Shown: positions 1,326-22,279 of the stretch, piece by piece | Layout of the letters: each line of letters starts with the position of its first letter | How positions within the stretch are numbered: the stretch's first letter is position 1 | DNA from: a virus | Virus record (IMG/VR): IMGVR_UViG_3300035698_016142 | Coordinates: 1-22,279 of that record | Reading direction: 5' to 3' (one strand) | Length of the DNA: 22,279 nucleotides | The notes under the pieces: model-generated | Databases searched by the model: none | Told to the model about the DNA's origin: nothing | What the model saw: only the letters and a program-made list of their open reading frames with translations | Translations under genes and position numbers: made by a program

Positions 1326-2767
1326 TATTTTTCCTTATCTTCAAGGCCAGCCACTGTATCCTCCAATGGTGGATTAGCATCTACATCATTTTCGTCCTCA
1401 GTGTCTTTTATGAATCCATCCAAACCATCCTTAATGGCCTTGATTTGATCTATGTCGAGTCCACCGAAAATCCTGAAAAATTCATCAGGGGCAATCATTT
1501 CCTCTACACCACCAGCTACATACTTGGCACCAGCCTCTGCCCACTTAGCGGCCACTGCTGCCTTCTCTTCATCCGTCTGGGTGTCTATATCCGGCCACTT
1601 GACAAAATACTCCTTGGGCTCCGGGAGGACTCCCACTGCAATCAATCTATCCACAAAGTTCCGAACAACCATGGGGGTGAGATACTTTTCCTGTCTCCTC
1701 TTGGTTCTGCCGTTAGCTGTCTTGGTGTCCTGCCCGGAAGCTAACTGACCCTGCTCACTACCAAGGAACTTTCGCTTTGGTATCCCTATGGCAATAGCGA
1801 TGGAATCCAACTGTGCTTCCAGATGGGGTCCCGGGTCCACTGCTTGGGGTGAAAGGCTCTTTGCTGACACTCCAGTTAATGCCAGATACCGTTGGAGGCC
1901 GTTCATGTAGTTTTCCATTTCATCCCGAAGAGAGGCTGTGTCCATTTCTACATTATTTTCTTGATCCCCACTGACTTCAAAGCTGTACCCGGGGAAGGCT
2001 CCCTTCCAAAACATCTCACCACTACCGGACAGGATCTTTCGAATGTCCAGAAGTCTATTATAATTCTTCTGCATCCGGGGGGTGCCATACACATCAGACA
2101 TTTGTCGTTGATCCGCAAGATGGACAACACGGGTCCAATGGACGGTGGAAGTTGTTGCCGAGTTGTTATTAACACCTTCAAACTCTATGCTGTAGTTGAG
2201 CGGCTGTCCGTATCGCTCATTCTTAGTGTCCTTCTCCAGTCCCTTTACTGTGACTACTGACTCTTCGAATGGTCTGAGGAAAAGTAAATCCTTTGGGGTG
2301 GTCTCTACTGGTTGATCCAAAGACTTACCATCACTGAGGCCGAGAAGGATTATTCCGAATCGACCTACACCAGACAGTTTATCAGCACGTTCCAGTTGAT
2401 AATAAATATGAAATTTCTTCACCAAGGCATCCCATACTGCTTCAAACTCTGTCTCTGTGTCGGGCTTCTCATCTTCATATACTTCAGGATCGTTAATCCA
2501 AGACTCTTCCGGCATGATATCCACCACCCGGGCAGCAACACCCTCCCTTTCATACATTTCATGGTATTGCTCTGATGATATGGAAGACGGATAGCCGCAT
2601 TCTGAATTGAGATCCCGCCCGGGACCATCCAGAAGCTTCCTCATAACCTCCTGCCTCATGGAAGATGCATTCATGGTGAACTCCCGCATCGACGCAACAT
2701 CATTCTTCTTCTTAGATACTGCCTTATTAGATACTACCTTCGCTCTGCTTGCCTTCTTCTTAGCCAT
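1325..2767 (-). CDS. Phage portal protein (DUF1073-like)
   Basis: This 480-residue protein lies directly after the large terminase. Features typical of the DUF1073 portal family are an early block with YEREGVAARVVDIMPEESW (about residues 73-91), a following stretch ending in GRFGIILLGL, and a later block with GIPKRKFLGSEQGQLASGQD. Portals form the dodecameric ring through which DNA is pumped. The N-terminus is a lysine-rich tail (MAKKKASRAK), similar to the start of the small terminase. The ATG overlaps the terminase stop (AATAATGG), with GGAGG nine bases upstream. The C-terminus is acidic. The family call rests on remembered sequence pattern and gene order. Confidence 0.88.
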   Translation of the reverse strand: MAKKKASRAKVVSNKAVSKKKNDVASMREFTMNASSMRQEVMRKLLDGPGRDLNSECGYPSSISSEQYHEMYEREGVAARVVDIMPEESWINDPEVYEDEKPDTETEFEAVWDALVKKFHIYYQLERADKLSGVGRFGIILLGLSDGKSLDQPVETTPKDLLFLRPFEESVVTVKGLEKDTKNERYGQPLNYSIEFEGVNNNSATTSTVHWTRVVHLADQRQMSDVYGTPRMQKNYNRLLDIRKILSGSGEMFWKGAFPGYSFEVSGDQENNVEMDTASLRDEMENYMNGLQRYLALTGVSAKSLSPQAVDPGPHLEAQLDSIAIAIGIPKRKFLGSEQGQLASGQDTKTANGRTKRRQEKYLTPMVVRNFVDRLIAVGVLPEPKEYFVKWPDIDTQTDEEKAAVAAKWAEAGAKYVAGGVEEMIAPDEFFRIFGGLDIDQIKAIKDGLDGFIKDTEDENDVDANPPLEDTVAGLEDKEK

Positions 2768-4218
2768 TATTTGAGTCCTCCAACACGCCTTCGAATCATC
2801 GTCAACAACGTAAATGCTCCTGAACTTGAATCCACTTGGTCTTTATACCTACTATTGGGGAAGAATTGAAGCTCATTTATGTAAATAGCATTCCACTCTG
2901 CCTTTGCCATCCAAACATTATCCTGTGCCACCTGTACCGCAAGGGGTTCCGCCCGGACTGTCTTGTCCCCTGTTGGCCTATCTATCTTGACAACCCACCC
3001 GGCCAACATCCTGCTGCTGTTCTGGGCACTCTCCTTGCCCCCTGAGCCCGGTTCTTGTTCAATGCCTACCCACACACCCCGGCCATCAATCTCTGCCGTC
3101 TGCTTGATTATACGCTCTCTCTCCCCCGCATCCCATTGGCCCCTGATTACATCCAGAATCCAGAATTGATCGTGTTCATCCCGTCCCATCTTCAAACCGA
3201 CTGTGAAAGCACCACCCTTGGCCGTCCCCGCCTTATCCCAGAATCGGACGATCCTCTTGAATTTCTTTGGTGGTGTCCCTATCCTGATTTTCTCTGTTCT
3301 GAACTGACCACCACCCCGGGGCACTGGGTTCTGTGTGAACTGGCCAGCATATCCATACTCACCAAGAGCTATCTTGAATTCATCCAGTGATTTTTGATTT
3401 AATCGTTTGGGATCCATCAGACCATTGACATACTTCTTCTTCAACTTTGCCGGTCTTATCTCACCCACATGGGGAGAATCATCCTCGTATTCAACAATCT
3501 CTGCAGGAAGGCATATATGACGAATGTCACCCGGGAGGGCTCTTTCCAACCATTCCCCGGTGCAATCCCCCTCATGAAGCCTCTGCATGATAAGAATAGT
3601 AGGGACGATTTCCTTATCAACCTTTCTGGTGGGCAGTGTCTCCCGCATCCACCGGTTTGCTGTGGCAAGCATGACATCTGAGAAGGCTTGCTTCGGGTCA
3701 AGTGGGTCATCTATTACAAGGAAATGACCATGGAATCCCGTGATGGATCCGCCCACTGATGTTGAACGCCGTCCTCCACCCATCTTATTCGTGAAATGGC
3801 CCTTGGCATCCTGATCCTCATGTATGCTGATTCGGGGGAATAACGTCTGGTATTTCTCACTCTTAACAATGAGTCTACTCTTCCGGGATAATTCCAAGGA
3901 TAGATCGTAGGAGTAACTTCCACAGATAGTTCGGGCGGAAGGCATCCGAGTCCATACCCATGCAGGAAACATGATGGAACAGATAGAACTCTTGGTGGTG
4001 CCCGGGCTAATATTTATTATTAAGTCATGAGTCTTGGGGAGTCCTAGGAAGACTCGTTCTGCTAATATCTGGAGTTCGTTGCAAAGATATTCTATATGCC
4101 AGTTTAGAACCATTTCCTCTGGGATTACCTCCGACCACATAGAACACACAAAGTCAAAGAAACTGTCTCTGCATATAGTTGATTCCATGGAGGTGGGGAG
4201 GTATTCCGCCTTCATCAC
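2767..4218 (-). CDS. terL: Terminase large subunit
   Basis: This 483-residue packaging motor has an N-terminal ATPase domain with a Walker A-like ISPGTTKSS (about 70-78) and a Walker B FLVIDDP (166-172). The C-terminal RNase H-fold nuclease has its first aspartate in RFWDKAGT (D328), the acidic VGIEQEPGSGGK block, and a last acidic segment DQVDSSSGAF near the C-terminus. It cuts concatemers and pumps DNA into the prohead through the portal encoded next. The start taken is the GTG at 4218, which lies 9 bases after GGAGG; an ATG at 4215 in the same frame is the alternative. It overlaps the end of the small terminase gene by four bases. Confidence 0.95.
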   Translation of the reverse strand: MMKAEYLPTSMESTICRDSFFDFVCSMWSEVIPEEMVLNWHIEYLCNELQILAERVFLGLPKTHDLIINISPGTTKSSICSIMFPAWVWTRMPSARTICGSYSYDLSLELSRKSRLIVKSEKYQTLFPRISIHEDQDAKGHFTNKMGGGRRSTSVGGSITGFHGHFLVIDDPLDPKQAFSDVMLATANRWMRETLPTRKVDKEIVPTILIMQRLHEGDCTGEWLERALPGDIRHICLPAEIVEYEDDSPHVGEIRPAKLKKKYVNGLMDPKRLNQKSLDEFKIALGEYGYAGQFTQNPVPRGGGQFRTEKIRIGTPPKKFKRIVRFWDKAGTAKGGAFTVGLKMGRDEHDQFWILDVIRGQWDAGERERIIKQTAEIDGRGVWVGIEQEPGSGGKESAQNSSRMLAGWVVKIDRPTGDKTVRAEPLAVQVAQDNVWMAKAEWNAIYINELQFFPNSRYKDQVDSSSGAFTLLTMIRRRVGGLK

Positions 4219-4799
4219 TGACTTAATTCCTCCTCTTGCTTCTTCTTCATGGCCTCAAGGATGGCCCGGCGAACTGATACCGGTAATTCCAGCTTATCTA
4301 TTTCTGCCACCTCATTGATCGTCCGGATAGGAGTTGCTCCCCCTTCAATCGTTATGTGGCTGGAGACTGGGACATCCAGACCAAGCAGCTTCCGCCTGTT
4401 CTCGCTTACCTTCAACCACCTGTCGATCGCTGCCATATCTCCACGCCTCACCCGGGGATACAATACCCGAAGAATCATATCAAACCTCTGTACCTCAAGG
4501 TCCCTGTAAATGGAGACTATTCCATCCTTCTCTTCAGACACCCGGGACATTTCAATGGCAAGATCATTGCAGATAACAGACCGGCTTGCTGTAATCTTGT
4601 GACGTTCCTTTAATGCCTGTGATATCATGAGAAGATTGAGTCCGCCCATTCGGTATTCCAGAACCAGCTTTCTCCGGATATCCATCTTGGCCTGCCTTGC
4701 GTCCTCCTTCGCTGTGGTCTTCTTCTTCACCTTCCCCGTTCTCACACTTGTTGTCCGGGGTTTCACGGGTTTGGATATAGAAGTTTTTTTCTTAGCCAT
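4215..4799 (-). CDS. terS: Terminase small subunit
   Basis: This 194-residue protein begins with a very basic tail (about 40 residues, MAKKKTSISK...), then a helix-turn-helix-like region (LLMISQALKERHKITASRS), and a segment DRWLKVSENRRKLLGLDVP (about 126-144) that is characteristic of small terminases. TerS recognises the packaging site and stimulates TerL. The gene lies immediately upstream of terL, with overlapping stop and start. GAGGAGAG stands 8 bases before the ATG. The C-terminus is a charged helix. No pac or cos site could be identified from sequence alone. Confidence 0.85.
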   Translation of the reverse strand: MAKKKTSISKPVKPRTTSVRTGKVKKKTTAKEDARQAKMDIRRKLVLEYRMGGLNLLMISQALKERHKITASRSVICNDLAIEMSRVSEEKDGIVSIYRDLEVQRFDMILRVLYPRVRRGDMAAIDRWLKVSENRRKLLGLDVPVSSHITIEGGATPIRTINEVAEIDKLELPVSVRRAILEAMKKKQEEELSQ

Positions 4800-5137
4800 T
4801 ATTCCACTCTCCTCTGTTTATCATTTTGTTTTTCACATTCTGCCTTGGCATCATTAGCCATGGAAATATCAGCTTTAACAAGTTCCGCCTGCATACTGTC
4901 CGCCACTTTTACCAAATATCTGGCAAGGCCCTCTGCCTTGACTGCATCTATGGACTCAAGGGCTTCCCTACACTTCTCTTCACTTTTATACACTGCCTTC
5001 ATATCCAAGCTGCATCCATCAAAAGTCATTGTCTGATGTAGTTGTTCCTCATTCTCATCATTGTTGGATTCTGTATAGAAAAGGATCTGTCCGTAGGGGG
5101 TATCAAATACCCTAGCAAACTGCTGTCCTGCTATCAT
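4799..5137 (-). CDS. Hypothetical protein, 112 aa
   Basis: I do not recognise this protein. It starts with a compact segment (MIAGQQFARVFDTPYGQILFY) followed by an acidic linker and a long charged helical region with a probable coiled coil (about residues 50-105). It has no membrane segment or signal peptide. GAGGGGG lies before the ATG, and its TAA stop touches the small terminase ATG, so it is cotranslated with the packaging genes. A role in packaging or head assembly is only a guess from position. Confidence 0.7.
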   Translation of the reverse strand: MIAGQQFARVFDTPYGQILFYTESNNDENEEQLHQTMTFDGCSLDMKAVYKSEEKCREALESIDAVKAEGLARYLVKVADSMQAELVKADISMANDAKAECEKQNDKQRRVE

Positions 5138-5165
5138 TTGTGCCCCCTCTTAATCACAAAATTAC

Positions 5166-5336
5166 TCATGTCCCATCTTTCCGACTAAACAAAAGATAAA
5201 TAATCACTAATGGAGTTCCTAGAATGCTTCCAACAATAGCACCAATGATAATGGGGATGAATACTACACAAGTTATGAAAGTACTTTCTATGCTATTCTC
5301 TACAAGCCACTGAAAGTACTTTCCTTTCCAATTCAT
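5166..5336 (-). CDS. Small membrane protein, 56 aa
   Basis: This short ORF begins MNWKGKYFQWLVENSIES and then has a long hydrophobic stretch (about residues 20-50, FITCVVFIPIIIGAIVGSIL, continuing VIIYLLF), with a small basic tail. That fits one long or two short membrane helices with a glycine/proline hinge. The ATG overlaps the stop of the upstream gene (TGATG), and an AGGAGAGG site lies just before it. The first third of the gene contains two identical 12-bp palindromes. Single-helix and hairpin membrane proteins of this size in phages are often holin-like, but there is no endolysin beside it, so no function is assigned. Confidence 0.65.
   Translation of the reverse strand: MNWKGKYFQWLVENSIESTFITCVVFIPIIIGAIVGSILGTPLVIIYLLFSRKDGT
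5277..5323. repeat. Two identical 12-bp palindromes, GAAAGTACTTTC
   Basis: A perfect palindrome GAAAGTACTTTC occurs at 5277-5288 and again at 5312-5323, with an identical extra T on the left of each. The start-to-start distance is 35 bp. Both lie in the 56-residue membrane protein gene but are read in different codon frames (as KYF and ESTF), so the duplication does not reflect a repeated peptide. I saw no other copy in the window. It has the form of a paired operator for a dimeric DNA-binding protein, or two small RNA hairpins. Confidence 0.6.
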
Positions 5337-5617
5337 CAGTGTCCTCTCCTAATCTTCGCATTCTTCATTTTCATATTCTCACCAATCTTTCCTGTTATTT
5401 CTTCTGCCTCAATCTGGGTGCCGTCTGCCTCAAGGATGGATACATTCCGGAATTGCATAATACCACTCGCCTGCTGTATCCTCTCCAATATTGGTTCTGG
5501 TTTTCTCTCTGCCTGTTTTATACTGAAATGCACATATATCCCGGATATGCTTCCAATCAGGAATATGAGGACAAAAATAACATCAGACAGTTTCAATGGG
5601 TCTCTCCTGCTTATCAT
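5336..5617 (-). CDS. Single-pass membrane protein, 93 aa
   Basis: The N-terminus MISRRDPLKLSD is followed by a transmembrane helix (VIFVLIFLIGSISGIYV, about residues 13-29), then a soluble, probably helical and charged domain of about 60 residues. The basic residues before the helix predict an inside N-terminus and an extracytoplasmic C-terminal domain. The family is not recognised. It is the first gene after a 73-base gap that holds a strong interleaved inverted-repeat structure. No strong Shine-Dalgarno site lies in the A-rich leader (AAGATAAAAAAT) just before the ATG; the nearest purine motif is inside that structure. Confidence 0.6.
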   Translation of the reverse strand: MISRRDPLKLSDVIFVLIFLIGSISGIYVHFSIKQAERKPEPILERIQQASGIMQFRNVSILEADGTQIEAEEITGKIGENMKMKNAKIRRGH

Positions 5618-5634
5618 ATTTTTTATCTTAAATT

Positions 5635-5689
5635 ACCTTCCCGGTGCCCCCTTATGAGAGCAAACGCCGGGAAGGTCCTTGAGGGGCAC
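5635..5689 (-). promoter_or_regulatory. Interleaved inverted repeats (possible pseudoknot) upstream of a membrane gene
   Basis: Two inverted repeats interleave in the order A-B-A'-B'. ACCTTCCCGG (5635-5644) matches CCGGGAAGGT (5667-5676) over 10 bp, and TGCCCC (5645-5650) matches GGGGCA (5683-5688) over 6 bp, 7 if base 5644 pairs with 5689 instead. They fill most of the 73-base gap between two genes on the minus strand. No U-run follows either stem, so an ordinary Rho-independent terminator is not supported. In the minus-strand RNA the structure ends about 17 bases before the next ATG, within reach of translation control. The two stems could form at once as a pseudoknot or compete as alternatives. 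Confidence 0.5.
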
Positions 5690-5690
5690 T

Positions 5691-5999
5691 TTATCTATCC
5701 AAAAGGAAAGTTTGCCAGCATTCCTCCGAACAAAACTTCATTCCCTTAATAGCTGTTGTCCATGGGGACCCGGGAAACCTGCCTCTACATCCATGACAGA
5801 AATACACCATTTCATTCTCCCCACTGTGTTCCTTAATGAAAATGCGTCTACTGTCCTCCTTCTGCCTGTCCTTTTCCTTCTTCAGTGCCTCCACTAATTC
5901 CTCCAGAAGAATAATCAAGGCATTCCTCTTTCCGGACTGGGACCACTCCCAGAGGGCAATACACAGAACCCCGGATAACCACATCATAAATAAATTCAT
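5691..5999 (-). CDS. Membrane-anchored protein with C-terminal zinc site, 102 aa
   Basis: The start is the ATG at 5999, which overlaps the stop of the upstream gene (ATATGA) and has GAGAAGG upstream; the frame is open further but the longer form would run into that gene. The N-terminal helix (LFMMWLSGVLCIALWEW, about 3-19) looks membrane-spanning. A charged coiled coil follows (LLEELVEALKKEKDRQKED), then a four-cysteine zinc-finger-like module, CHGCRGRF ... FCSEECW (about 73-96). The layout is anchor, stalk and metal site. I do not recognise the family and assign no function. Confidence 0.6.
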   Translation of the reverse strand: MNLFMMWLSGVLCIALWEWSQSGKRNALIILLEELVEALKKEKDRQKEDSRRIFIKEHSGENEMVYFCHGCRGRFPGSPWTTAIKGMKFCSEECWQTFLLDR

Positions 6000-6151
6000 A
6001 TTGTATCCTTCTCCCATCTGCAGGCAAAAAAGATATAGGACATCCACCGGACGAACCAATTGGGTTCCTTGCCCATGGCCGGGGTGAACTTCATACCACA
6101 TTCCTCAGTACCGCCCCACATATAGCAATGCCAAGGGGATTGTTTGGGCAT
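5996..6151 (-). CDS. Hypothetical small protein, 51 aa
   Basis: This short, aromatic-rich ORF (MPKQSPWHCYMWGG...) has three cysteines and a tryptophan-rich C-terminal part (NWFVRWMSYIFFACRWE). The chosen ATG lies just after the stop of the IbrB-like gene with an AAGGA site between; a longer start at 6208 would overlap that gene. Its end overlaps the next gene by four bases. It is too short to classify. Confidence 0.45.
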   Translation of the reverse strand: MPKQSPWHCYMWGGTEECGMKFTPAMGKEPNWFVRWMSYIFFACRWEKDTI

Positions 6152-6153
6152 CT

Positions 6154-6810
6154 CTATTCCTTGGAGACTTCTGTGGTTCTCAACTGTAACTGGTTTTTGG
6201 TCATCCATGCCTTATTATACTCCTTATCTGCAAAAAGTTTAGAAAAGCCCGTTATGTGCTTCAGTCTCAAAAGTTCCTCTGCTTCCATGCCGAGTTCGTT
6301 GCAAATCTCTGCATCTGTCATCCCATTATCCAGCATTTTGAAGGCCATAGAAGCCATACCAGTTACCGAATGTTTGCCCCGGGCTCTGTTATGCCTGATA
6401 GTTGAGGCCATTCTGTCGTTCATCCCCTTTTCCATGACAACAATCGGCAAGTACCCTTGAGTCCGGTCATATATCTTTTTTGAGGACTTCATGACGAAAT
6501 AGCGATGGAATCCATCAACTATGACATACTTATTAGATTCTTTATCATAAATTGTAACAACCGGCTGTGTGTAGTTATCATGTTCGATGGATCTGAGGAG
6601 CAATCTCATCTCAATTTTAGCCACTGAATTGGGATTGTAATCGTTTGGGGATACCCTGTCCAGATGGACCCACATGACCTTTGCAACGGGCTGTGAAGCC
6701 ATTGGGGTGCTGTCCATGGTCTGCGCAACTATGATGTTGGCAAGACTCATCTTTGCTTCTAAGTCTGGGGTCCCGTCAAGTGCTTCCTTGATCTGTGCTT
6801 TTATATTCAT
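6154..6810 (-). CDS. ParB/Srx-fold protein, IbrB-like
   Basis: This 218-residue protein has a ParB-like N-terminal domain: LDRVSPNDYNPN (about 50-61), then the nucleotide-contacting box IVDGFHRYFVM (97-107), and HNRARGKHS (140-148). A helix-turn-helix-like region follows (NGMTDAEICNELGMEAEELLRL, 162-183), as in ParB. The family includes CTP-dependent partition proteins and sulfiredoxin-like enzymes. A stand-alone member next to a PAPS-reductase-like gene matches the IbrA-IbrB pair known from enterobacterial prophages, where they were described as regulators. Here it overlaps the IbrA-like gene by 35 bases. A role in a DNA-modification or regulatory unit is inferred. Confidence 0.75.
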   Translation of the reverse strand: MNIKAQIKEALDGTPDLEAKMSLANIIVAQTMDSTPMASQPVAKVMWVHLDRVSPNDYNPNSVAKIEMRLLLRSIEHDNYTQPVVTIYDKESNKYVIVDGFHRYFVMKSSKKIYDRTQGYLPIVVMEKGMNDRMASTIRHNRARGKHSVTGMASMAFKMLDNGMTDAEICNELGMEAEELLRLKHITGFSKLFADKEYNKAWMTKNQLQLRTTEVSKE

Positions 6811-8005
6811 TCCACCACTCCATCAGTTCAACTTTTTTGTATGCCGGGATAAGTTTATCCTTCAGGCCCTTCAAGACCGTGGCCCGGCACCATTTATCCT
6901 TCTTCCACATTATACGATGGTAATTGTAGATTGGCTGTCTTCTCTCAAAGTTTGTGATCTTTGTGAAGTCCCAATCAGCACTGAGAATTGTGTTAATAAC
7001 GTGCTTCCACATCATTGTGATGACTGGTTCTGTGATATACAATGCCCGGAGTCTCTCTATTTCAGTCGAGAGCATGGGTTTCCGGTCATCTGGGACCATG
7101 TTATCAGCCAAGTGCATTGTGTACTCCTCCCATGTCTTAAACATGTAGGGGAGCTCCTTGGGACTGGCGAAGGAGAAGCGGGATACCTGATTGATGGTAT
7201 TCGCCCCGGGGATCTTATGAGCTACCTTCAACCATGTCTCTGGTTCTATCTCCTGAATGAACTGCAGGATCTGAATGGCGGTCTCATGGTGGACATTGGA
7301 AACCCGCATATCCTTCACCTGAAAACCATATTGATACATTTTATCATAAACCTTGTTGTACTTCCACTGGTTATCATGGATGGCCTTCCAAATGTCTTCT
7401 ACTGCCCAATCATACAGTGGGTAAAAAGTGTAGAGGCCCTTCCGTGGATTCAGTTTTTTACCCCATGTAATTGCTTTGTAGGTTACCCCGGTGGTCAAGG
7501 ACACATATCGCTTGGGTGCCTCCTCTGCCCTCACTCCGGAGATATAGCAGGCATTCCCCTCTGGAAATTCATGGGCAAGGATGGGCAGGAATAATTCGTG
7601 GAATCTGTCTGTCCCGTAAACATTGGTTTTCCGGGAGAGGGGGTGCTTCCCATGGATCCAGTTTTCGTCATCCCCCTCTTTCCAACACTGTGCATACCTC
7701 TCAGTAGAGCTTGCATTATTGGTAATGACAATGGGCATCTGGAACCACATGGGGTCAATATCTGATTGGGTCAGAATATCAGTACAGTAGTTCACCGTTG
7801 ATTGCCATTCGGCCTCTTGGTCCAGCCACATGACTTTCAACGGCAGTCTCCCCCTCTCCCGGGCAACAATTAAAGTAAGCTGCAGAGTTACTGTCGAATC
7901 CTTTCCTCCGGAGAACCCCACCACCACATTGGGGAACTCATCAAACAGTCCCCGGATCCGGTCCAACGATTCTTCGAACACATTATTTTTGAGATATATT
8001 CTCAT
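6776..8005 (-). CDS. PAPS-reductase-like protein (IbrA/DndC type)
   Basis: This 409-residue protein carries the PP-loop motif SGGKDS (about 32-37) that binds and activates with ATP in PAPS reductases, DndC and related adenylating enzymes. Further matches to the phage IbrA/DUF3440 type are KVMWLDQEAEWQSTV, SGVRAEEAPKR, and FYPLYDWAVEDIWKAI, a block conserved in sulfotransfer enzymes. It lacks an obvious iron-sulfur Cys set like that of DndC. The ATG at 8005 was chosen; a TTG six bases upstream is closer to the ideal distance from AAGGA. The gene overlaps both neighbours. Likely chemistry is ATP-dependent activation, possibly with sulfur transfer. Whether the substrate is DNA, RNA or a small molecule cannot be read from the sequence. 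Confidence 0.8.
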   Translation of the reverse strand: MRIYLKNNVFEESLDRIRGLFDEFPNVVVGFSGGKDSTVTLQLTLIVARERGRLPLKVMWLDQEAEWQSTVNYCTDILTQSDIDPMWFQMPIVITNNASSTERYAQCWKEGDDENWIHGKHPLSRKTNVYGTDRFHELFLPILAHEFPEGNACYISGVRAEEAPKRYVSLTTGVTYKAITWGKKLNPRKGLYTFYPLYDWAVEDIWKAIHDNQWKYNKVYDKMYQYGFQVKDMRVSNVHHETAIQILQFIQEIEPETWLKVAHKIPGANTINQVSRFSFASPKELPYMFKTWEEYTMHLADNMVPDDRKPMLSTEIERLRALYITEPVITMMWKHVINTILSADWDFTKITNFERRQPIYNYHRIMWKKDKWCRATVLKGLKDKLIPAYKKVELMEWWNEYKSTDQGST

Positions 8006-8582
8006 GTTCAATCAGTTCCTTTATCACCCGAATGCACTTCCCATTATAATCAGACATCACAAATCTTTTTCCCTGCCTGAGAAATCGGAGTCCCGTGCCC
8101 CCAAACCCACAACAGAAGTCACCTACACATTTGTACTGCTTTGCAAGGGTGTTGATGACCTGTACTGTGGTGCGAAGAGACACAGGCTCCACTTGATAAT
8201 AATATGCCTTCACGGGATCCCCATTGAGTTCAAGATCACCAACATGATCTGCATGGACCATAGGAGCTTTCTTCATGTTGATAATAATGGCAGGTTTGCC
8301 AAGACGATGTATTTCAGAATCAATGGTAGAGAGAACATCCTTGTAACTGGACTCTATGCCTGACATTTCATTAAAGAATTTCATGCCGGGCCTGAAGGGA
8401 GGTTCTGCATACAGGAAGTCACATTGCTTGTATTCCTCTGGGAGACCTCTGGAAGCATCCCATTGAAAAGCTATGTTCCCCCGAAACTCATACCTGTCGA
8501 GTCCTTGAGCCTCACTTGTGCTAGACTCCTCCCGGGACCTCTTCAATGCCGAATGGTAGGGTAGGTGACAAACCGTTTTCAT
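7983..8582 (-). CDS. DNA methyltransferase-like protein with EPPF motif
   Basis: This 199-residue protein has the two key regions of an amino-methyltransferase in permuted order: a catalytic-type motif FLYAEPPF (about 56-63), then a SAM-binding motif GDFCCGFGGTGLRF (154-167) with the following SDYN (177-180). Active N6-adenine/N4-cytosine enzymes carry (D/N/S)PP(Y/F/W); here the first residue is glutamate, so base methylation may be lost or changed. It lacks a visible target-recognition domain and is small. Its ATG overlaps the stop of the glycosyltransferase-methyltransferase gene (GCATGA), so the two are coupled. It could be a divergent enzyme, a partner subunit, or a catalyst of another SAM-dependent step. 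Confidence 0.65.
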   Translation of the reverse strand: MKTVCHLPYHSALKRSREESSTSEAQGLDRYEFRGNIAFQWDASRGLPEEYKQCDFLYAEPPFRPGMKFFNEMSGIESSYKDVLSTIDSEIHRLGKPAIIINMKKAPMVHADHVGDLELNGDPVKAYYYQVEPVSLRTTVQVINTLAKQYKCVGDFCCGFGGTGLRFLRQGKRFVMSDYNGKCIRVIKELIEHENISQK

Positions 8583-9844
8583 GCCGGGGCCCTTACTTCC
8601 TCAATAACCATCTTTTTCTTCTCCGCCCATCCAAGCAGCTTCGACAGTTTATTGGGATTCAACTCTATTCCGTGGCAGACCATTCCGGCTGTCACGGCCT
8701 CCCGGAAGAACTCTCCAATACCCACAAAAGGATCACAATAATTCTTGAAACCTGCCTCTGCCAAATACTGAATATATGCCCGGGTGAATATTTTCCCCTT
8801 CGAACAATCTATGTCTGCCGGAGGTATAGCCATTCCCCCGAAAGATCCAACCCAGATACTATATGGAATCCCCTTACCATAATAGGATTCAAACACCTTG
8901 CCCTCTATGCCGCCCTCCGACACCAAAGCTTTCTGGAGTTGGGGAAAGCAGGGGTTTCCAAATTCTACCACCATATGTGCCTTCGGAAAGTGTTGCTTTA
9001 ATCGGGAGACAATACGGGGAATCATTTTATCAATATCAATCTTGGTGTCATAACCGGCGTGTTTGTAGAAGGAGGAGGCAATAGCAGAATTCCATGGGGG
9101 ATCCGTATATACACAATCTATTTCCCGTCCATTGAATAACTCTGAAAGATCATCCTCTGTACAGTCTCCACACATGATTCTGTGCTTCCTGTCTATCTGC
9201 CAAATACTTCCACGACCAAGACCATACTTGTTTTTTCCACCATACCACTCCCTATGTTCTTTCTTCTCTGTAGTTGCCCCGGGGACCTCCCCATAATGTT
9301 CAATGTAAGATTGGCTTTGTCGATTCCGTGGCCGAGGTCCCAATAACGATTTTTCATGGGCATGTTGAACCAGTGAGGGGATTGCCATCAGGTATGGAAT
9401 GCGATACTTCCTGAAAAAGTCTTGCATCAGATAATCGTCTGCAGTTCTCTTTTCGTGTGTCTGTCCCTCTGTGTCTATCCACACCCGGGCATACTTCCGA
9501 AGGGACTCCATCAAATACCCGGGAAGGTAAACACATTGCATCCACAAAAAGGAACTGGCAGGCATCATTTTTTCTTCCTGCACCTTCTGACAGAACCCAC
9601 GAATAACCCGCTTCGTATGTTCCTTCTCATAGGCCCTACATCTGTCAAGGAAATCTGATGGAAGAATAACATCGTCCTGCAGTCTCCAATGTCCCCCTTC
9701 CATCTGTAGGGTGTCCCAAAAGGTTTCCCAGAACTCCCCCCGGGGTCGTGCGCAAACTGTGACATCCTGCCCGGCCAGTCCCTCCAACATCTGTTCCCGG
9801 AGTACAAGACGTTCCCCCTCTGTCGCATGGATGACAAATTTCAA
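8579..9844 (-). CDS. Glycosyltransferase-DNA methyltransferase fusion
   Basis: This 421-residue protein is composed of two parts. Residues about 1-185 resemble phage GT-A glycosyltransferase-like proteins: HWRLQDDVILPSDF (52-65, with the metal-type DD), SSFLWMQCVYLPGYL (97-111) and PSLVQHAHEKSLLG (156-169). Residues about 205-421 form a beta-type amino-methyltransferase: SIWQIDRKHRIMCGDC (213-228), VYTDPPW (245-251, catalytic motif IV) and YCDPFVGIGEFF (369-380, SAM motif I), then GIELNPNK. The TTG at 9844 is chosen as start because it overlaps the upstream TGA and has GAGGAGA seven bases before it. The MT half resembles that of ParB-methyltransferase fusions; here ParB is a separate gene two loci upstream and a glycosyltransferase-like domain takes its place. 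Likely acts on phage DNA, and the fusion suggests more than simple methylation. Confidence 0.72.
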   Translation of the reverse strand: MKFVIHATEGERLVLREQMLEGLAGQDVTVCARPRGEFWETFWDTLQMEGGHWRLQDDVILPSDFLDRCRAYEKEHTKRVIRGFCQKVQEEKMMPASSFLWMQCVYLPGYLMESLRKYARVWIDTEGQTHEKRTADDYLMQDFFRKYRIPYLMAIPSLVQHAHEKSLLGPRPRNRQSQSYIEHYGEVPGATTEKKEHREWYGGKNKYGLGRGSIWQIDRKHRIMCGDCTEDDLSELFNGREIDCVYTDPPWNSAIASSFYKHAGYDTKIDIDKMIPRIVSRLKQHFPKAHMVVEFGNPCFPQLQKALVSEGGIEGKVFESYYGKGIPYSIWVGSFGGMAIPPADIDCSKGKIFTRAYIQYLAEAGFKNYCDPFVGIGEFFREAVTAGMVCHGIELNPNKLSKLLGWAEKKKMVIEEVRAPA

Positions 9845-10128
9845 AATGGTTTCTCCTCTGCCTTGTTTATTAAAATGGTATCCCGAACACGGTCCCCCAT
9901 GGTCCAATACTTCCAACCGTTGTAATATAGATAAATAAAGGTCCTGCTGTAGAACCTCTCTTCAACACCATTCGCCCGGATGTATCGGACAACATCCCGG
10001 AAATCTTTTGGATCGTCCCAAGTATCTCTGAGGGTGTACCAATGTGGTGTCTGTGGCATGGACTTTGCAAACTTATATGTAGCACCCGTGAGATTCTGGA
10101 GAAGCTTATCCTTCAAGCTCAAATTCAT
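9841..10128 (-). CDS. Conserved phage protein of unknown function, 95 aa
   Basis: This small protein is rich in aromatic residues: TPHWYTLRDTW, FRDVVRYIRANGVEERFYSRT, and YLYYNGWKYWTMG, followed by TILINKAEEK. I recall this pattern as an N-terminal module on some phage SAM-dependent methyltransferases; here it stands alone just upstream of a methyltransferase gene, with a four-base overlap. The start taken is the ATG at 10128, with GGAG upstream; a GTG at 10134 is also possible. It may recognise the same substrate as the enzymes that follow. This is inference. Confidence 0.6.
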   Translation of the reverse strand: MNLSLKDKLLQNLTGATYKFAKSMPQTPHWYTLRDTWDDPKDFRDVVRYIRANGVEERFYSRTFIYLYYNGWKYWTMGDRVRDTILINKAEEKPF

Positions 10129-10663
10129 GTCCACACTCCGGGCAAATGGCTTCCATCTTTTCCCTGTTACGGTCCATGTTGTCCGCCATATCTGCAGCCT
10201 TCTTATTTATGTCCTCATCTGATACATTGGAATCATCAAAATCAGGATTGTCATTGGGGGAGAATCCACCTAATGATGCAAAGTCTGTGGGGTCGAAGCC
10301 AAGAGTCTCCAGTTCTGGTATCTCCCATTCAGTGCCAAGAACATCGAAGTCCCATTCACCGGCCATACCATCTGGGGCATTGTCAACAAGAATAAATCTT
10401 TTTTTCTGTTCCTCACTCAAATCCTTTGCCCGGACTGCCCAATCATAGGGGATCTTCCTCTTCTCCAGAAGTAGGCAAGCATGATACCTCTGAGTGCCCC
10501 CGAGAATCAGATTGGTCTCATCTATTACGATGGGACGAAGGACCATGAATTGCGGATCCCTCTCTATGGAAGCGGCAAGCTTCTCCAATTTAGCCTGAGT
10601 GATCCTCCGAGGGTTTTTCTCATTGACCCTCAAGTCCTCTAACTTCCAACTACGTTTTGCCAT
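10106..10663 (-). CDS. ParB-like nuclease-domain protein with C-terminal zinc site
   Basis: This 185-residue protein begins MAKRSWKLEDLRVNEKNPRR, the usual opening of ParB-like domains, followed by the box LGGTQRYHACLLL (about 54-66) and SEEQKKRFILVDN (83-95). The segment after that (GEWDFDVLGTEWE ... LETLGFDP) matches the linker found between ParB and methyltransferase domains in phage fusion enzymes. It ends with a single zinc-type pair, CPECGHEFE (174-182). The ATG at 10663 is chosen because GAGAGGA lies before it, and a promoter lies upstream. It is the first gene of the minus-strand operon. A role in targeting or regulating the following modification enzymes is inferred. Confidence 0.78.
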   Translation of the reverse strand: MAKRSWKLEDLRVNEKNPRRITQAKLEKLAASIERDPQFMVLRPIVIDETNLILGGTQRYHACLLLEKRKIPYDWAVRAKDLSEEQKKRFILVDNAPDGMAGEWDFDVLGTEWEIPELETLGFDPTDFASLGGFSPNDNPDFDDSNVSDEDINKKAADMADNMDRNREKMEAICPECGHEFELEG

Positions 10664-10704
10664 GATAATCCTCTCTGTCCTCAGAAAAAGTGTTCGCCAA
10701 AAGA

Positions 10705-10732
10705 AATATACAAAATAAATCGGGATAGTCAA
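10705..10732 (-). promoter_or_regulatory. Sigma70-type promoter for the minus-strand operon
   Basis: Reading the minus strand, TTGACT (10732-10727) is separated by 16 bases from TATATT (10710-10705). Transcription would start near 10698, giving a leader of about 35 bases to the ParB-like gene. The sequence is AT-rich and lies back to back with the plus-strand promoter. Confidence 0.6.
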
Positions 10733-10751
10733 TTACCTTTTAATTTTCTTG

Positions 10752-10885
10752 AACCGACTATATAGTAGGAGTATAACCCTGCAGTAACTCATTGCTGTAT
10801 TTCATCAGCTTAAAATAAAGTGAAAATAAATTTCATTTTGTTATTGACAAACATTAACCGACGATATATAGTATGAGTATAACCC
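10752..10885 (+). repeat. Direct repeat pair in the divergent control region
   Basis: Two copies of AACCGAC, a 2- or 4-base spacer, then TATAGTA(G/T)GAGTATAACCC occur at 10752-10779 and 10856-10885. The right copy covers the -10 box and start region of a strong promoter. The left copy has the same TATAGT but no good -35 box 16-18 bases upstream. This suggests an operator shared by both sites or a second, weak or activator-dependent promoter. The rest of the 254-base intergenic region is AT-rich and shows nothing else clear. Confidence 0.6.
10844..10872 (+). promoter_or_regulatory. Strong sigma70-type promoter, first plus-strand unit
   Basis: A consensus TTGACA (10844-10849), a 17-base spacer and TATAGT (10867-10872, one mismatch to TATAAT). 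The start point would be near 10879 and the first gene begins at 10918 after AGGAGAAACAAAA. The same spacing and leader appear at the second plus-strand promoter. Confidence 0.8.
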
Positions 10886-10917
10886 ATATGGTATGGGGGA
10901 ACACAGGAGAAACAAAA

Positions 10918-11190
10918 ATGGGAACTGCAGAAATCAAAGTCCGTATAACCGACGAAACTGAAGGGGATGAAATAATGGAAGCTTTTGGAACCTACGGATA
11001 TGCCCTGCAACACGGTCCAGATACAAGACACCTCATATGCTCAGAAAAATTTAAGCTTCTCCGAAATGCCAAGGCCAAGGTGGACAGTCTCCCGGAGGGA
11101 AGGGCATTCCGTCTGTGGAGGCTCCTGACAGATGGCAAGGAGTTTAGCACACTGTTTGACGGCGGAACCATTTCGGAACGTATTGTTTAG
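10918..11190 (+). CDS. Hypothetical early protein, 90 aa
   Basis: I do not recognise this small soluble protein. It begins MGTAEIKVRITDETEGDEIM and contains a mixed alpha/beta pattern, with a basic middle (KFKLLRNAKAKVD). The ATG at 10918 is chosen over the upstream in-frame ATG at 10873 because AGGAGA lies at the right distance and the upstream one would fall in the promoter start region. It is the first gene behind the strong promoter, so it is likely expressed right after infection. Confidence 0.65.
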   Translation: MGTAEIKVRITDETEGDEIMEAFGTYGYALQHGPDTRHLICSEKFKLLRNAKAKVDSLPEGRAFRLWRLLTDGKEFSTLFDGGTISERIV

Positions 11191-11203: not shown

Positions 11204-11440
11204 ATGATACCAAAAGGCATTGAAGTGAAGAGGTGTTGGGCGTGGCATTACTGGTATGAAGGTCCCCGGCGTTGGGTGGCTGAATATCAAAATAAGGATA
11301 GGGAAACAGTAGGATCCAAGCTATATGGCTTCTGTGAAATCGATCTGGTATTCCGGATGGGGCAATCACAGAAAAGATACACACAGCTTGGGCTTGAAAT
11401 GAAAAAAGAAGTGAAAGATGGTATGGATGGTAGAAAGTAA
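11204..11440 (+). CDS. Hypothetical early protein, 78 aa
   Basis: This small protein is rich in tryptophan and tyrosine near its N-terminus (CWAWHYWYEGPRRWVAEY) and basic at its C-terminus. No family is recognised. The ATG at 11204 is set by AGGAG eight bases upstream, placed right after the stop of the previous gene. It shares the first plus-strand transcript. Confidence 0.6.
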   Translation: MIPKGIEVKRCWAWHYWYEGPRRWVAEYQNKDRETVGSKLYGFCEIDLVFRMGQSQKRYTQLGLEMKKEVKDGMDGRK

Positions 11441-11474
11441 ATCACGTTTTTTTGAGGAAGCGAAGGGGAGTATT

Positions 11475-12197
11475 ATGATTCAAGTATATGGAGCAAATAC
11501 CACAAGAGCGGATCTGAAAGAAGTTGTCATGGAAAGACCTGATACTGCCGGGCGTTACTGGATGGGGGTTCCACACCATGATCTGATTGAAACCATTGAG
11601 GAGTCCGCCCGGACCCGTGGTTGGGAAGTCACCGACGAAAAGTATGCTCTGAGCAACGACCGGGCAGACTTGGCCGGTGCCCTCTCCCTCCACATCCCGG
11701 AGACCGATGCACCAGAGGGGCAAACATTCTCTCTGGGGTTCCTTACATCCAATGCAATGCGCCGGGCCTTGAAGATGGTAGCAGGTACTGAGATCCGGGT
11801 TTGTAACAATGGAATGGCAACAGGTGAGATTGTGCTGAACCGCCGTCACACTTCCGGTCTGAGCCTCTTTGATGAAGTAGATGATGCTATGGACATCTAC
11901 GGGGACAAGATTCGTGAGGTGCCCGGCATTGTGGCAGGATGGAAGGACAGGGAACTCTCCCGGAATGATGTGGACAATATTCTCATGAAGACTGGTGAAG
12001 AATTGATTCTGCCATGGTCCCGGGTGGGCAAGGTCCTGAATGAATACAAGAACCCAACCTTTGCAGAGCACAACGAACCGACATCATGGGGGCTCTTGAA
12101 TGCCTTCACTTATATTGCACAGAAGCAACCTCCTCTGAGCCAACTGGATTGCCTCTGCCATTTCAAAAATCTGCTGCCTGCTGCTGCCGTCAACTGA
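11475..12197 (+). CDS. DUF932-like protein
   Basis: This 240-residue protein resembles the DUF932 family of phage and plasmid proteins, best seen in the block FSLGFLTSNAMRRALKMVAG with VCNNGMATGE after it (about residues 87-119). The upstream segment contains the usual N-terminal region with LSNDRADLAGALSLHIPE. The molecular role of the family is unknown. The start is the ATG at 11475, preceded by AAGGGGAG; an in-frame start at 11418 would overlap the previous gene. It is the last gene before a pair of hairpins, so it closes the first plus-strand unit. Confidence 0.6.
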   Translation: MIQVYGANTTRADLKEVVMERPDTAGRYWMGVPHHDLIETIEESARTRGWEVTDEKYALSNDRADLAGALSLHIPETDAPEGQTFSLGFLTSNAMRRALKMVAGTEIRVCNNGMATGEIVLNRRHTSGLSLFDEVDDAMDIYGDKIREVPGIVAGWKDRELSRNDVDNILMKTGEELILPWSRVGKVLNEYKNPTFAEHNEPTSWGLLNAFTYIAQKQPPLSQLDCLCHFKNLLPAAAVN

Positions 12198-20119: not shown

Positions 20120-21120
20120 ACGTAAACAGGGAAGACCTATTATCTCAATTACTTTCTGTGCAGTATGGTGTCAGTAAAGCAGAGGTGATTGAACAAAGCA
20201 ATTGTGTGATATTTGATGGTGGTATGGTGAAGACCTTCAATGATGAAGTGGCTTGTTCATCTGAATGCGAAATAAAAGATATCACCGGGGCCGTTAATTG
20301 CGGTCCCCTCCTGACACTCCTTCAGAAGATGGTGGAAGAAGTGATTGTCATTTCAGAAGAGGAAGGGGAATTGAGGATCAAAGGTAAGAGAAGGAAAGCA
20401 GGATTCCGAATGGAGGCCGAAATCCTATTGCCTGTGGAAGAGGTGGAGGTTCCTGAATCATGGGCCAGTCTGCCTGATGATTTCTGTCAGGCTGTAGATG
20501 TAGCCCAAAAATGCTGTGCCAAGGGAGAGTCTAATTTTGATCTATCCTGTGTCCACCTCACTCCGGAATGGGTAGAGTCCTGCAACAACTTCCAGCTTGT
20601 CAGATACCCTCAACACCTACCACTGACTGAGGATTGTCTAGTCCGCCGGGAGTCCATGAAATCTATTGCCGGGCTGGATGTCTGCGAAATGGCAAGCACT
20701 CCGAACTGGATCCACTTCCGCAATCTGGGTGGTGTAGTTATCTCCTGCCGGAGATACATGGAGGATTTTCCGAGCCTAACAAATCTATTGAATGTTAGCG
20801 GAACGGAGGTCAAACTGCCAAAGGGTGCTGCAGAGGCCACAGCCATCGCCTCAATCTTCTCCAATGACAAGCAGGAGGATGGTGTAGTAGTCTCCATTCA
20901 AGCGGGCCGGATCTCTGTAACTGGCCGGGGGGATTCTGGATGGTATAAAGAAAGCAAGAAGATGAAATACGATGGACCCTCTTTTATGTTCACCATCGCC
21001 CCGGACCTCCTGAAAGAAATCATCAATGATTATTCTGTGTGTGAGATATCGGAAGGGAAGGTATTGAAGGCAACAACAGACTCCTTTGTATTTGTCTCTG
21101 CTCTGGGGGATATTAAGTGA
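20116..21120 (+). CDS. DNA polymerase sliding clamp-like protein
   Basis: This 334-residue protein resembles the DnaN-type beta clamp of phages: an N-terminal part with CVIFDGGMVKTFNDEVAC, a central region of repeated beta-sheet elements, and the end KVLKATTDSFVFVSALGDIK, typical of the clamp C-terminal strand with its hydrophobic terminus. A clamp tethers the polymerase encoded next. Length is slightly below bacterial DnaN (about 370). Position directly before the polymerase, with an overlapping start, supports the call. Sequence divergence is high, so this rests on pattern and context. Confidence 0.75.
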   Translation: MNVNREDLLSQLLSVQYGVSKAEVIEQSNCVIFDGGMVKTFNDEVACSSECEIKDITGAVNCGPLLTLLQKMVEEVIVISEEEGELRIKGKRRKAGFRMEAEILLPVEEVEVPESWASLPDDFCQAVDVAQKCCAKGESNFDLSCVHLTPEWVESCNNFQLVRYPQHLPLTEDCLVRRESMKSIAGLDVCEMASTPNWIHFRNLGGVVISCRRYMEDFPSLTNLLNVSGTEVKLPKGAAEATAIASIFSNDKQEDGVVVSIQAGRISVTGRGDSGWYKESKKMKYDGPSFMFTIAPDLLKEIINDYSVCEISEGKVLKATTDSFVFVSALGDIK

Positions 21121-22279
21121 AAGGGTTTTTCAAAACATCGTCCAGCAAGGCCCCCTTTCCAACCATTCCCCGGTGTGGTTCCTGTGGTCTCCGGAGGAAA
21201 TGCAAGACTCCAAAGATGACAGTAGTGGGGAGGGGCAGGAAGTCCATTCTTGTGGTGGGTACACACCCCACTAAGGAAGCGGATTCCCGTGGTGGTCCTT
21301 TTACCGGGAGTCATGGGGAAAGGGTCCGGGACGACTTCAAAGCAGCCGGGCTTGATCTGGAGAAGGATTGCTGGAAAACCTATGCTGTAAACTGCTGTGT
21401 TCGGAGTGGTGAGATTCCAAAACAGTCTGTGGCCTCCTGTCGTCCTCTACTACTGAAAGCAATTGCCGAATATAAACCAAAGGTGATTGTGCTTATGGGA
21501 TCAGAGGCTATTGAAAGTGTCTTTGGATATATTCGAAGTGAAGAAAAGTCTATTCAGAAATGGGCAGGATGGACCATACCATACCATGATTGGAATGCAT
21601 GGATCTGTCCCATCAAAGACGTTGCCCATGTAGAAGAGGAGGACAGTAAAGCCATTGATCTGGAATGGGGGAGGCATATCCGAGCTATTGCAGGGAAAGT
21701 AGGCGAGGCACTGCCCCCTATTCCCAAAGCAAATATTGAAATTGAATTTAATAATGACCGGGCTGTGGGGATCTTGACCGAATTCTATGAAAACCCCGCC
21801 CCAATTGCCTTCGACTATGAAACTAACATGTTGAAACCAGACTCCCCAGAGGCAGCAATAGTTACATGTTCAGTATGTTGGGCTGGTAGGAGGACAATCG
21901 CTTTCAACTGGACTGAAGAAACTAAATGGGCAATGTGGAAATTACTTCTCTCGCATGACCACCCAAAGATAGCAAGTAATATGAAGTTTGAAGAGAGGTG
22001 GACCCGGGCCATCATGGACATTTCAGTTCAAGAATGGCAATGGGATACCATGCTTGCTGCCCATGTTTTGGACAATCGCAGTGGAATAACATCCGTTAAA
22101 TTTCAGGCATTCGTCCTGCTAGGACAGGAATCCTATGACGATGAAATAAGTTCTTACTTAAAATCAGATAATAGCAACACCCCGAACCGAATATATGAGT
22201 GTGACCGGGAGAAGCTACTGGAGTATAATGGCCTTGACTCTTTTTTAGAATACCGGGTTTCACAGATACAGATGAAGGC
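21117..22279 (+). CDS. UDG-DNA polymerase A fusion (partial, C-terminus cut)
   Basis: The frame stays open from the GTG at 21117 (overlapping the clamp stop, AAGTGA) to the window end, 387 codons. Residues about 18-125 resemble a family 4 uracil-DNA glycosylase: C20-x2-C23 at the start of an iron-sulfur-like site, GTHPTKEAD (48-56) and GPFTGSHGE (60-68), later cysteines C93/C94 and C108 in the usual NCC and SCRP positions, and PKVIVLMGSEA. Residues about 225-387 are a 3'-5' exonuclease: exo I FDYET (D233, E235), exo II SNMKFEERW, exo III YNGLDSF (Y370, D374). The polymerase domain should lie beyond the edge. The second residue of the glycosylase motif GExPG, acidic in active enzymes, is threonine here. 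Confidence 0.88.
   Translation, partial: MKGFFKTSSSKAPFPTIPRCGSCGLRRKCKTPKMTVVGRGRKSILVVGTHPTKEADSRGGPFTGSHGERVRDDFKAAGLDLEKDCWKTYAVNCCVRSGEIPKQSVASCRPLLLKAIAEYKPKVIVLMGSEAIESVFGYIRSEEKSIQKWAGWTIPYHDWNAWICPIKDVAHVEEEDSKAIDLEWGRHIRAIAGKVGEALPPIPKANIEIEFNNDRAVGILTEFYENPAPIAFDYETNMLKPDSPEAAIVTCSVCWAGRRTIAFNWTEETKWAMWKLLLSHDHPKIASNMKFEERWTRAIMDISVQEWQWDTMLAAHVLDNRSGITSVKFQAFVLLGQESYDDEISSYLKSDNSNTPNRIYECDREKLLEYNGLDSFLEYRVSQIQMK

Follow-up and report, generated by a model that had tools for sequence, protein, structure and literature searches.

What is the function of six overlapping virus genes that stand upstream of the terminase genes and encode two ParB-type proteins, a PP-loop ATPase and putative transferases? 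The genes, termed here P1 to P6, occupy positions 6154-10663 on the minus strand of IMG/VR virus record IMGVR_UViG_3300035698_016142 (22,279 bases, possibly a fragment; this whole stretch is referred to as the window), and each of them overlaps the next. They encode a ParB-type protein (P1), a small conserved protein (P2), a fusion of a glycosyltransferase (GT) and a methyltransferase (P3), a methyltransferase-like protein (P4), a PP-loop ATPase related to 3'-phosphoadenosine 5'-phosphosulfate (PAPS) reductases (P5), and an IbrB-type ParB protein (P6). An earlier note on this DNA described the same six genes and proposed that they produce a composite modification of DNA base or backbone, with sulfur chemistry of the DndC type as one component. 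Comparison across viral loci showed that the outer genes P1, P2, P5 and P6 form a constant part, and that the GT and methyltransferase genes are interchangeable cargo, a distinction overlooked in that note; this modular architecture of swapped genes is our principal new finding. DNA modification as such is a likely function, and we consider it probable that a constant frame and exchangeable decorating enzymes jointly create a hypermodified base in the phage's own DNA; a modified backbone is less likely.

Conservation of the cassette in viral genomes

Alignment searches with P4, P2 and P6 gathered approximately 100 viral loci (numbered here with the prefix L), of which 59 were left after removal of near-duplicates; the P6 set comprises the best 80 of 280 matches and is therefore biased towards the clade of the window. 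The P4 search found two loci, L002 and L003, in which the six genes keep their order and are followed directly by the terminase genes. Five of their proteins are 38-57% identical to those of the window, the methyltransferase domain of P3 is about 20% identical, and its GT half is missing. This recurrence of the order is more than chance. Among the loci fetched with P6 that reach far enough upstream, nearly all carry P1 and P2, and P5 is present in every one of the 18 viral loci fetched with P2; P2 is a core component of the cassette and not filler.

Over the 59 non-redundant loci the frame is nearly constant: P1, an S-adenosylmethionine (AdoMet or SAM) decarboxylase in some cases, P2, slot A, slot B, P5, P6, terminase. 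The few rearrangements place P1 after P6 (L023 and L031) or a GNAT gene before P3 (L067). Far from never co-occurring in other phages, the outcome that the earlier note had named as speaking against its proposal, the homologues form this frame in dozens of non-redundant viral loci. A profile matching the large terminase of the other loci gave no match to the large terminase of the window; the cassette therefore appears in phages whose packaging genes differ greatly. Related arrangements were also found in cultured phages: Microbacterium phage Leaf has GTs, an acetyltransferase, a P2-like domain fused to a methyltransferase, and P5 at one end of its genome; Microbacterium phage Rasputia has three ParB genes and the terminase at the other genome end; and Mycobacterium phage Baloo has a ParB gene, two small genes, a PAPS-reductase-like gene, a second ParB gene and the terminase in succession.

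Replacement of the genes between P2 and P5

In the same 59 loci the stretch from P2 to P5 is variable. Slot A holds a GT, a methyltransferase with the motif DPPW, both of these, or a GT2-like protein, and slot B holds P4, a 128-amino-acid protein whose profile matches GNAT structures at 5e-9, or a 171-amino-acid protein with an invariant HxD...H pattern. This pattern resembles 2-oxoglutarate dioxygenases, a likeness that we treat only as a lead because the protein has no match in PDB or Pfam. Some loci add sugar-type O-methyltransferases (TylF, FkbM). On a tree of P5 with 56 rows, the content of slot A switched a minimum of 25 times and that of slot B a minimum of 19 times.

Pairwise DNA alignments showed how precise these changes are. 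Sister phages with 80-94% DNA identity differ by near-exact replacement of the P2-P5 stretch: the alignment runs through the 3' part of P2 and picks up again at the next conserved gene or no more than about 30 bases from it. L033 and L034 are 94% identical up to the 3' end of P2, cannot be aligned in slot A (GT versus methyltransferase), and align again, at 92.7%, from the first base of the GNAT gene. Both slots differ between L067 and L097 (GNAT and methyltransferase versus GT and the 171-amino-acid protein), with the alignment back within one base of the start of P5. In the trio L021, L025 and L099, which carry a methyltransferase, a GT2 and a GT, respectively, L021 departs from the other two at the end of P2 and matches them again about 7-30 bases ahead of the P5 start. 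Such a combination of constant outer and exchanged inner genes would be expected if a common step were carried out by the frame and the product were varied by the inner enzymes.

In one clade and in L023, an AdoMet decarboxylase (PF02675, 3e-22) stands between P1 and P2; the gene was noted at L021:7594-7962 and in about 14 loci. It looks canonical, with the active-site letters ESH...C kept, and could provide decarboxylated SAM for the modification of DNA. Slot B is absent from the cassettes with this gene (0 of 8, versus 39 of 48 other cassettes; Fisher 1.7e-5), a contrast that was rejected as confounded by shared ancestry, with only two changes on the tree.

Proteins of the constant frame

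Both proteins described previously as ParB-like were recovered as such by profile searches. P1 matches phrog_620 (ParB, 5.9e-27) as well as the ParB part (35-193) of the ParB-methyltransferase family phrog_498, and a CPxC-type motif is found in 75 of 76 homologues. P6 matches phrog_2159 (IbrB-like ParB, 1.7e-67), and its DGFHR motif is kept in 98/98 homologues. The assignment of P5 as PAPS-reductase-like stands as well: PF01507 (PAPS_reduct) is matched at 3.3e-14 (53.7 bits, cut-off 22.5) and DUF3440 at 26.3 bits, above the cut-off of 25, and all 88 P5 proteins contain SGGKDS and DW...D(V/I)W. The nearest solved relatives of P5 are FAD synthase, CysD and PAPS reductase; FAD synthase and CysD are adenylating enzymes.

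In P2, the residues PH, YW and N are invariant in 37 homologues. Its structure is predicted confidently (predicted local distance difference test, pLDDT, 91.9), and comparison of the model with PDB gave no convincing match (Foldseek best E 0.5, VIA best Z 3.9), so that its function is not read from the fold.

Members of the P2 family were also seen in bacterial genomes, usually without the cassette (L124:934-2388, L130:8590-9261, L159:9001-10836, L131:3340-4311 and L163:7216-8184), where by eye the open reading frames (ORFs) run on into ADP-ribosylglycohydrolase-, Nudix-, DUF262- or class I methyltransferase-like sequence. A divergent order P5-P2-P3-P6 occurs in L141, L144 and L149 (about 4400-11000), which come from Bacteroidota, Ignavibacteria and Kapaibacterium genomes; this order may mark a version of the system carried by cells or prophages.

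Proteins of the variable slots

The description of P3 as a glycosyltransferase-methyltransferase fusion was borne out for both halves. For the N-terminal half, 17 of 20 homologues fall into the glucosyltransferase family phrog_854. Its model (pLDDT 78.7; Foldseek 7e-5) superimposes on GlcNAc-transferase I (1foa) over 170 residues with VIA Z 15.0 and a root-mean-square deviation of 2.6, corresponding to the GT-A fold, and the Asp residues that are invariant in the GT alignment are retained in the window. The C-terminal half matches the start of the methyltransferase half of phrog_498 (5.3e-11). DPPW is present in 31/31 P3 proteins, that of the window included, and precedes GxG, i.e., motif IV before motif I, the order of beta-type N6/N4 amino-methyltransferases. 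In a Pfam scan P3 of the window had no match, and its L002 homologue reached 24.0 for N6_N4_Mtase against a cut-off of 26.7. Since P1 corresponds to the ParB half of phrog_498 and the C-terminal half of P3 to the start of its methyltransferase half, P1 and P3 resemble a split phrog_498 protein. As a single query, P3 retrieved no relatives among viral contigs. Adjacent unfused genes for a GT and a short methyltransferase occur in L019, L027, L050, L058 and L072 and back the fusion only indirectly.

The EPPF motif noticed in P4 is real. In an alignment of 10 homologues its Glu (E60) is invariant (10/10), standing where amino-methyltransferases have Asp or Asn, and G159xG161 of the SAM-binding region is kept; the PP after the Glu is not invariant. 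All Pfam methyltransferase matches of P4 are weak and below the cut-off. P3 (DPPW) and P4 (EPPx) recall the pair METTL3 and METTL14, an analogy weakened by the occurrence of P4 without P3 and given up.

Alternative explanations

A phosphorothioate-type system, with P5 as a DndC-like sulfur transferase, P6 as a DndB-like regulator and the methyltransferase and GT as separate additions, is suggested by weak matches of P5 to DndC (PADLOC 7.1e-9; TIGR03183 29.9 bits) and by the coupling of a PP-loop enzyme with a ParB/sulfiredoxin (Srx) protein that Dnd shares with P5 and P6 (PMC10853773). However, 29.9 bits lie far from the DndC equivalog cut-off of 290.4, a CxxC pair is found in 0/88 P5 proteins, an alignment made up of P5 proteins alone has no invariant Cys column and 8 of its 67 rows lack both of the commonest ones, and the scanned ORFs of the window, a contig fragment, gave no profile match to DndA, DndD or DndE. 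We regard this explanation as improbable, and the Dnd-type sulfur chemistry is the part of the earlier proposal that we do not retain; a co-evolving cassette, rich in enzymes of the kinds that modify DNA and placed at the head of the packaging genes, is the part that stands.

Equally hard to favor is a regulatory or anti-defence role, in which the IbrA/IbrB pair would act as transcription co-activators or the ParB proteins as anti-restriction factors and the methyltransferase alone would methylate DNA. Published work assigns IbrA and IbrB a role in co-activating the expression of prophage genes (PMC4490671), beyond which we found no function described for them, and ParB-methyltransferase fusions are common in phages (phrog_498). 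This role leaves unexplained both the constant gene order and the replacement of GT, GNAT, 171-amino-acid and sugar-methyltransferase genes between P2 and P5.

Modification of a protein, an RNA or a small molecule would agree with established knowledge of the GT-A, GNAT, TylF and FkbM families, whose members have proteins, glycans and natural products among their substrates. The two ParB proteins, the kinship of the P3 domain with DNA methyltransferases (phrog_498; N6_N4_Mtase in L002) and the fixed terminase linkage point instead to DNA as the target, and a non-DNA target is in our estimate quite unlikely. Finally, phage cysH is routinely reported as a sulfur-cycling gene in virome studies (PMC9301287), but P5 as a CysH protein raising host sulfate assimilation, with unrelated neighbours, is very improbable, given that the catalytic ECGxH of PAPS reductase and the CC...CxxC of adenosine 5'-phosphosulfate reductase both occur in 0/88 P5 proteins and that the neighbours to which P5 is locked are P6, P1, P2 and the terminase, not sulfur genes.

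Several observations weigh against the preferred reading of DNA hypermodification. Distant P5/P6 pairs occur in cultured phages of Flavobacterium and Streptococcus without P2 and the slots, and the P2 family is found in many bacterial genomes without the cassette. P2 and P4 have no assigned activity, and the GT-methyltransferase fusion is seen in this contig only. GTs and GNATs can act on substrates other than DNA. Nucleoside data for any carrier were not found in the literature covered.

Proposed mechanism

In the hypermodification model that we prefer, the frame proteins P1, P2, P5 and P6 would act on DNA, to which the two ParB/Srx proteins would bind or onto which they would load. P5 would activate a group through adenylation, P2 may recognise the nucleotide or bridge enzymes, and together the frame proteins would introduce or uncover an acceptor group. 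Because P5 appears to lack conserved sulfur-handling cysteines, we favor adenylation of a base, which another nucleophile would then attack, over the transfer of sulfur. The acceptor is probably a hydroxyl or an amine, given that sugar, methyl or acyl groups are what the slot enzymes transfer. The enzymes encoded between P2 and P5 would then decorate this acceptor. In the phage of the window, P3 would add a sugar and, with the DPPW domain, either a methyl or another group derived from SAM, with P4 as a second SAM-binding partner or transferase; in its relatives, the GNAT acyltransferase, the HxD..H protein, other GTs and sugar O-methyltransferases would serve as decorators, and decarboxylated SAM could be supplied in the AdoMet-decarboxylase clade. 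The terminase linkage suggests action late in infection, shortly before packaging. As recombination exchanges the decorator genes, sister phages would bear different coats against restriction.

A bolder version, which we find possible but rather doubtful, is that IbrA/IbrB with P1 and P2 constitute an undescribed machine for activation of DNA bases, in which PP-loop adenylation installs a handle, the coat is changed by swaps of decorator genes, and the DPPW enzyme of the AdoMet-decarboxylase clade puts an aminopropyl group on DNA by using decarboxylated SAM.

Comparison with known systems

The closest relatives of the 3' part of the cassette are the IbrA/IbrB pairs of phages and prophages (phrog_2302/phrog_2159): P5 and P6 match both families and are likewise encoded by adjacent, overlapping genes, but here the pair closes, on the 3' side, a longer cassette that also has P1, P2 and transferases open to exchange. 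A published precedent for several elements of the cassette acting on phage DNA is the pathway for 5-carboxymethylcytosine of Synechococcus phage S-B43, in which CmoA makes carboxy-SAM, CmoX, with a methyltransferase fold, transfers from it to cytosine in phage DNA, and CmoY adenylates and couples glycine, with ParB genes as neighbours (PMC12783734). The methyltransferase-fold enzyme, the ATP-dependent adenylating enzyme and the ParB neighbours are common to both, and the modified SAM of CmoA perhaps has a counterpart in the AdoMet-decarboxylase clade, for which we hypothesize an analogous use of decarboxylated SAM. In contrast, the SPPC motif of that system is absent here (DPPW in P3, EPPF in P4), CmoY is an AMP-forming amide ligase and not a PP-loop enzyme of the PAPS-reductase type, and the frame and swap architecture differ.

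Dnd/Ssp systems resemble the cassette in placing a PP-loop enzyme (DndC) with a ParB/Srx protein (DndB) near DNA, and differ as described above. Compared with the phage fusions of phrog_498, the ParB part and the start of the methyltransferase part sit in separate genes here, and P2 and a GT domain intervene. The phage glucosyltransferases of phrog_854 share the GT domain family, which in this contig is fused to a methyltransferase and belongs to an exchangeable slot. For the 7-deazaguanine (Dpd) pathway, no match to a TGT-type DpdA was found in the scanned ORFs of the window fragment.

Gene layout and genomic context

The features of the locus are collected in Table 1. The TTG start of P3 overlaps the stop codon of P2 and is preceded by GGAG; it replaces the start at 9916 in the ORF list, which is too early, because the GT homologues begin at the residue encoded at 9844. 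The start of P4 and the stop of P3 share an ATGA overlap. The small terminase subunit is a putative assignment from its position before the large subunit, as its PHROG name reads 'Rnase E'.

Table 1. Positions of cassette genes (with likely start codons) and associated features in the window
Feature	Positions	Strand	Remarks
P1, ParB-type protein, core	10106..10663	-	185 amino acids; C-terminal CPEC knuckle; ATG 10663
P2, small conserved protein, core	9841..10134	-	97 amino acids; GTG 10134 or ATG 10128
P3, GT-A glycosyltransferase and DPPW methyltransferase fusion, slot A	8579..9844	-	TTG 9844
P4, methyltransferase-like, EPPF (Glu for Asp/Asn, motif IV), slot B	7983..8582	-	ATG 8582
P5, PP-loop ATPase, IbrA/DUF3440 type, core	6776..8005	-	ATG 8005
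P6, IbrB-type ParB/sulfiredoxin superfamily, DGFHR motif, core	6154..6810	-	ATG 6810
Putative small terminase subunit, downstream context	4215..4799	-	position before large subunit
Large terminase subunit, downstream context	2767..4218	-	phrog_38, 1.1e-79
Promoter-like site TTGACT-16-TATATT upstream of P1	10705..10732	-	consensus scan, 10/12, sigma-70-like

A single promoter shared by the six genes had been proposed. The one 10/12 site upstream of P1 is only consistent with it and, given the regional excess of sigma-70-like matches (20 versus 9.4 in shuffles), proves nothing. Downstream of the cassette, a few small genes lead to the terminase genes (putative small subunit, then large subunit) and on to portal and head morphogenesis genes, and the divergent right arm of the window encodes a helicase, a primase, DnaB and a processivity factor. 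Megablast of the cassette region against phage records gave no match, a close DNA relative being absent from the phage collection.

Two near-identical direct repeats of the form ACCGAC..ATATAGTA.GAGTATAACCC lie in the divergent intergenic region (10753-10779 and 10857-10885), the second overlapping a plus-strand TTGACA-TATAGT promoter-like site; they are a possible phage operator or promoter family. A DUF932 protein is encoded near the cassette (11418-12197), and Flavobacterium phage FPSV-F7 (L005) has a DUF932 gene a few kilobases from its IbrAB pair. A truncated ORF at 21117-22277 combines, by eye, a uracil-DNA-glycosylase-like N-terminal region with a DNA polymerase I exonuclease-like region.

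Implications

A search of open-access papers gave no account of the cassette, and in the passages covered the paper on Hendrix, a relative of Leaf, does not discuss DNA modification (PMC7302621). Cultured carriers and relatives, namely Microbacterium phages Leaf, Hendrix and Rasputia and Mycobacterium phage Baloo, make the chemistry directly testable. The finding suggests a function for the phage 'PAPS reductases', which virome studies present as widespread genes of viral sulfur cycling (PMC9301287) and of which it was stated that such phage proteins 'deserve further investigation' (PMC11437467), and for IbrA/IbrB as well. The constant genes of the frame could be used as bait for new DNA-modifying enzymes encoded in the slots.

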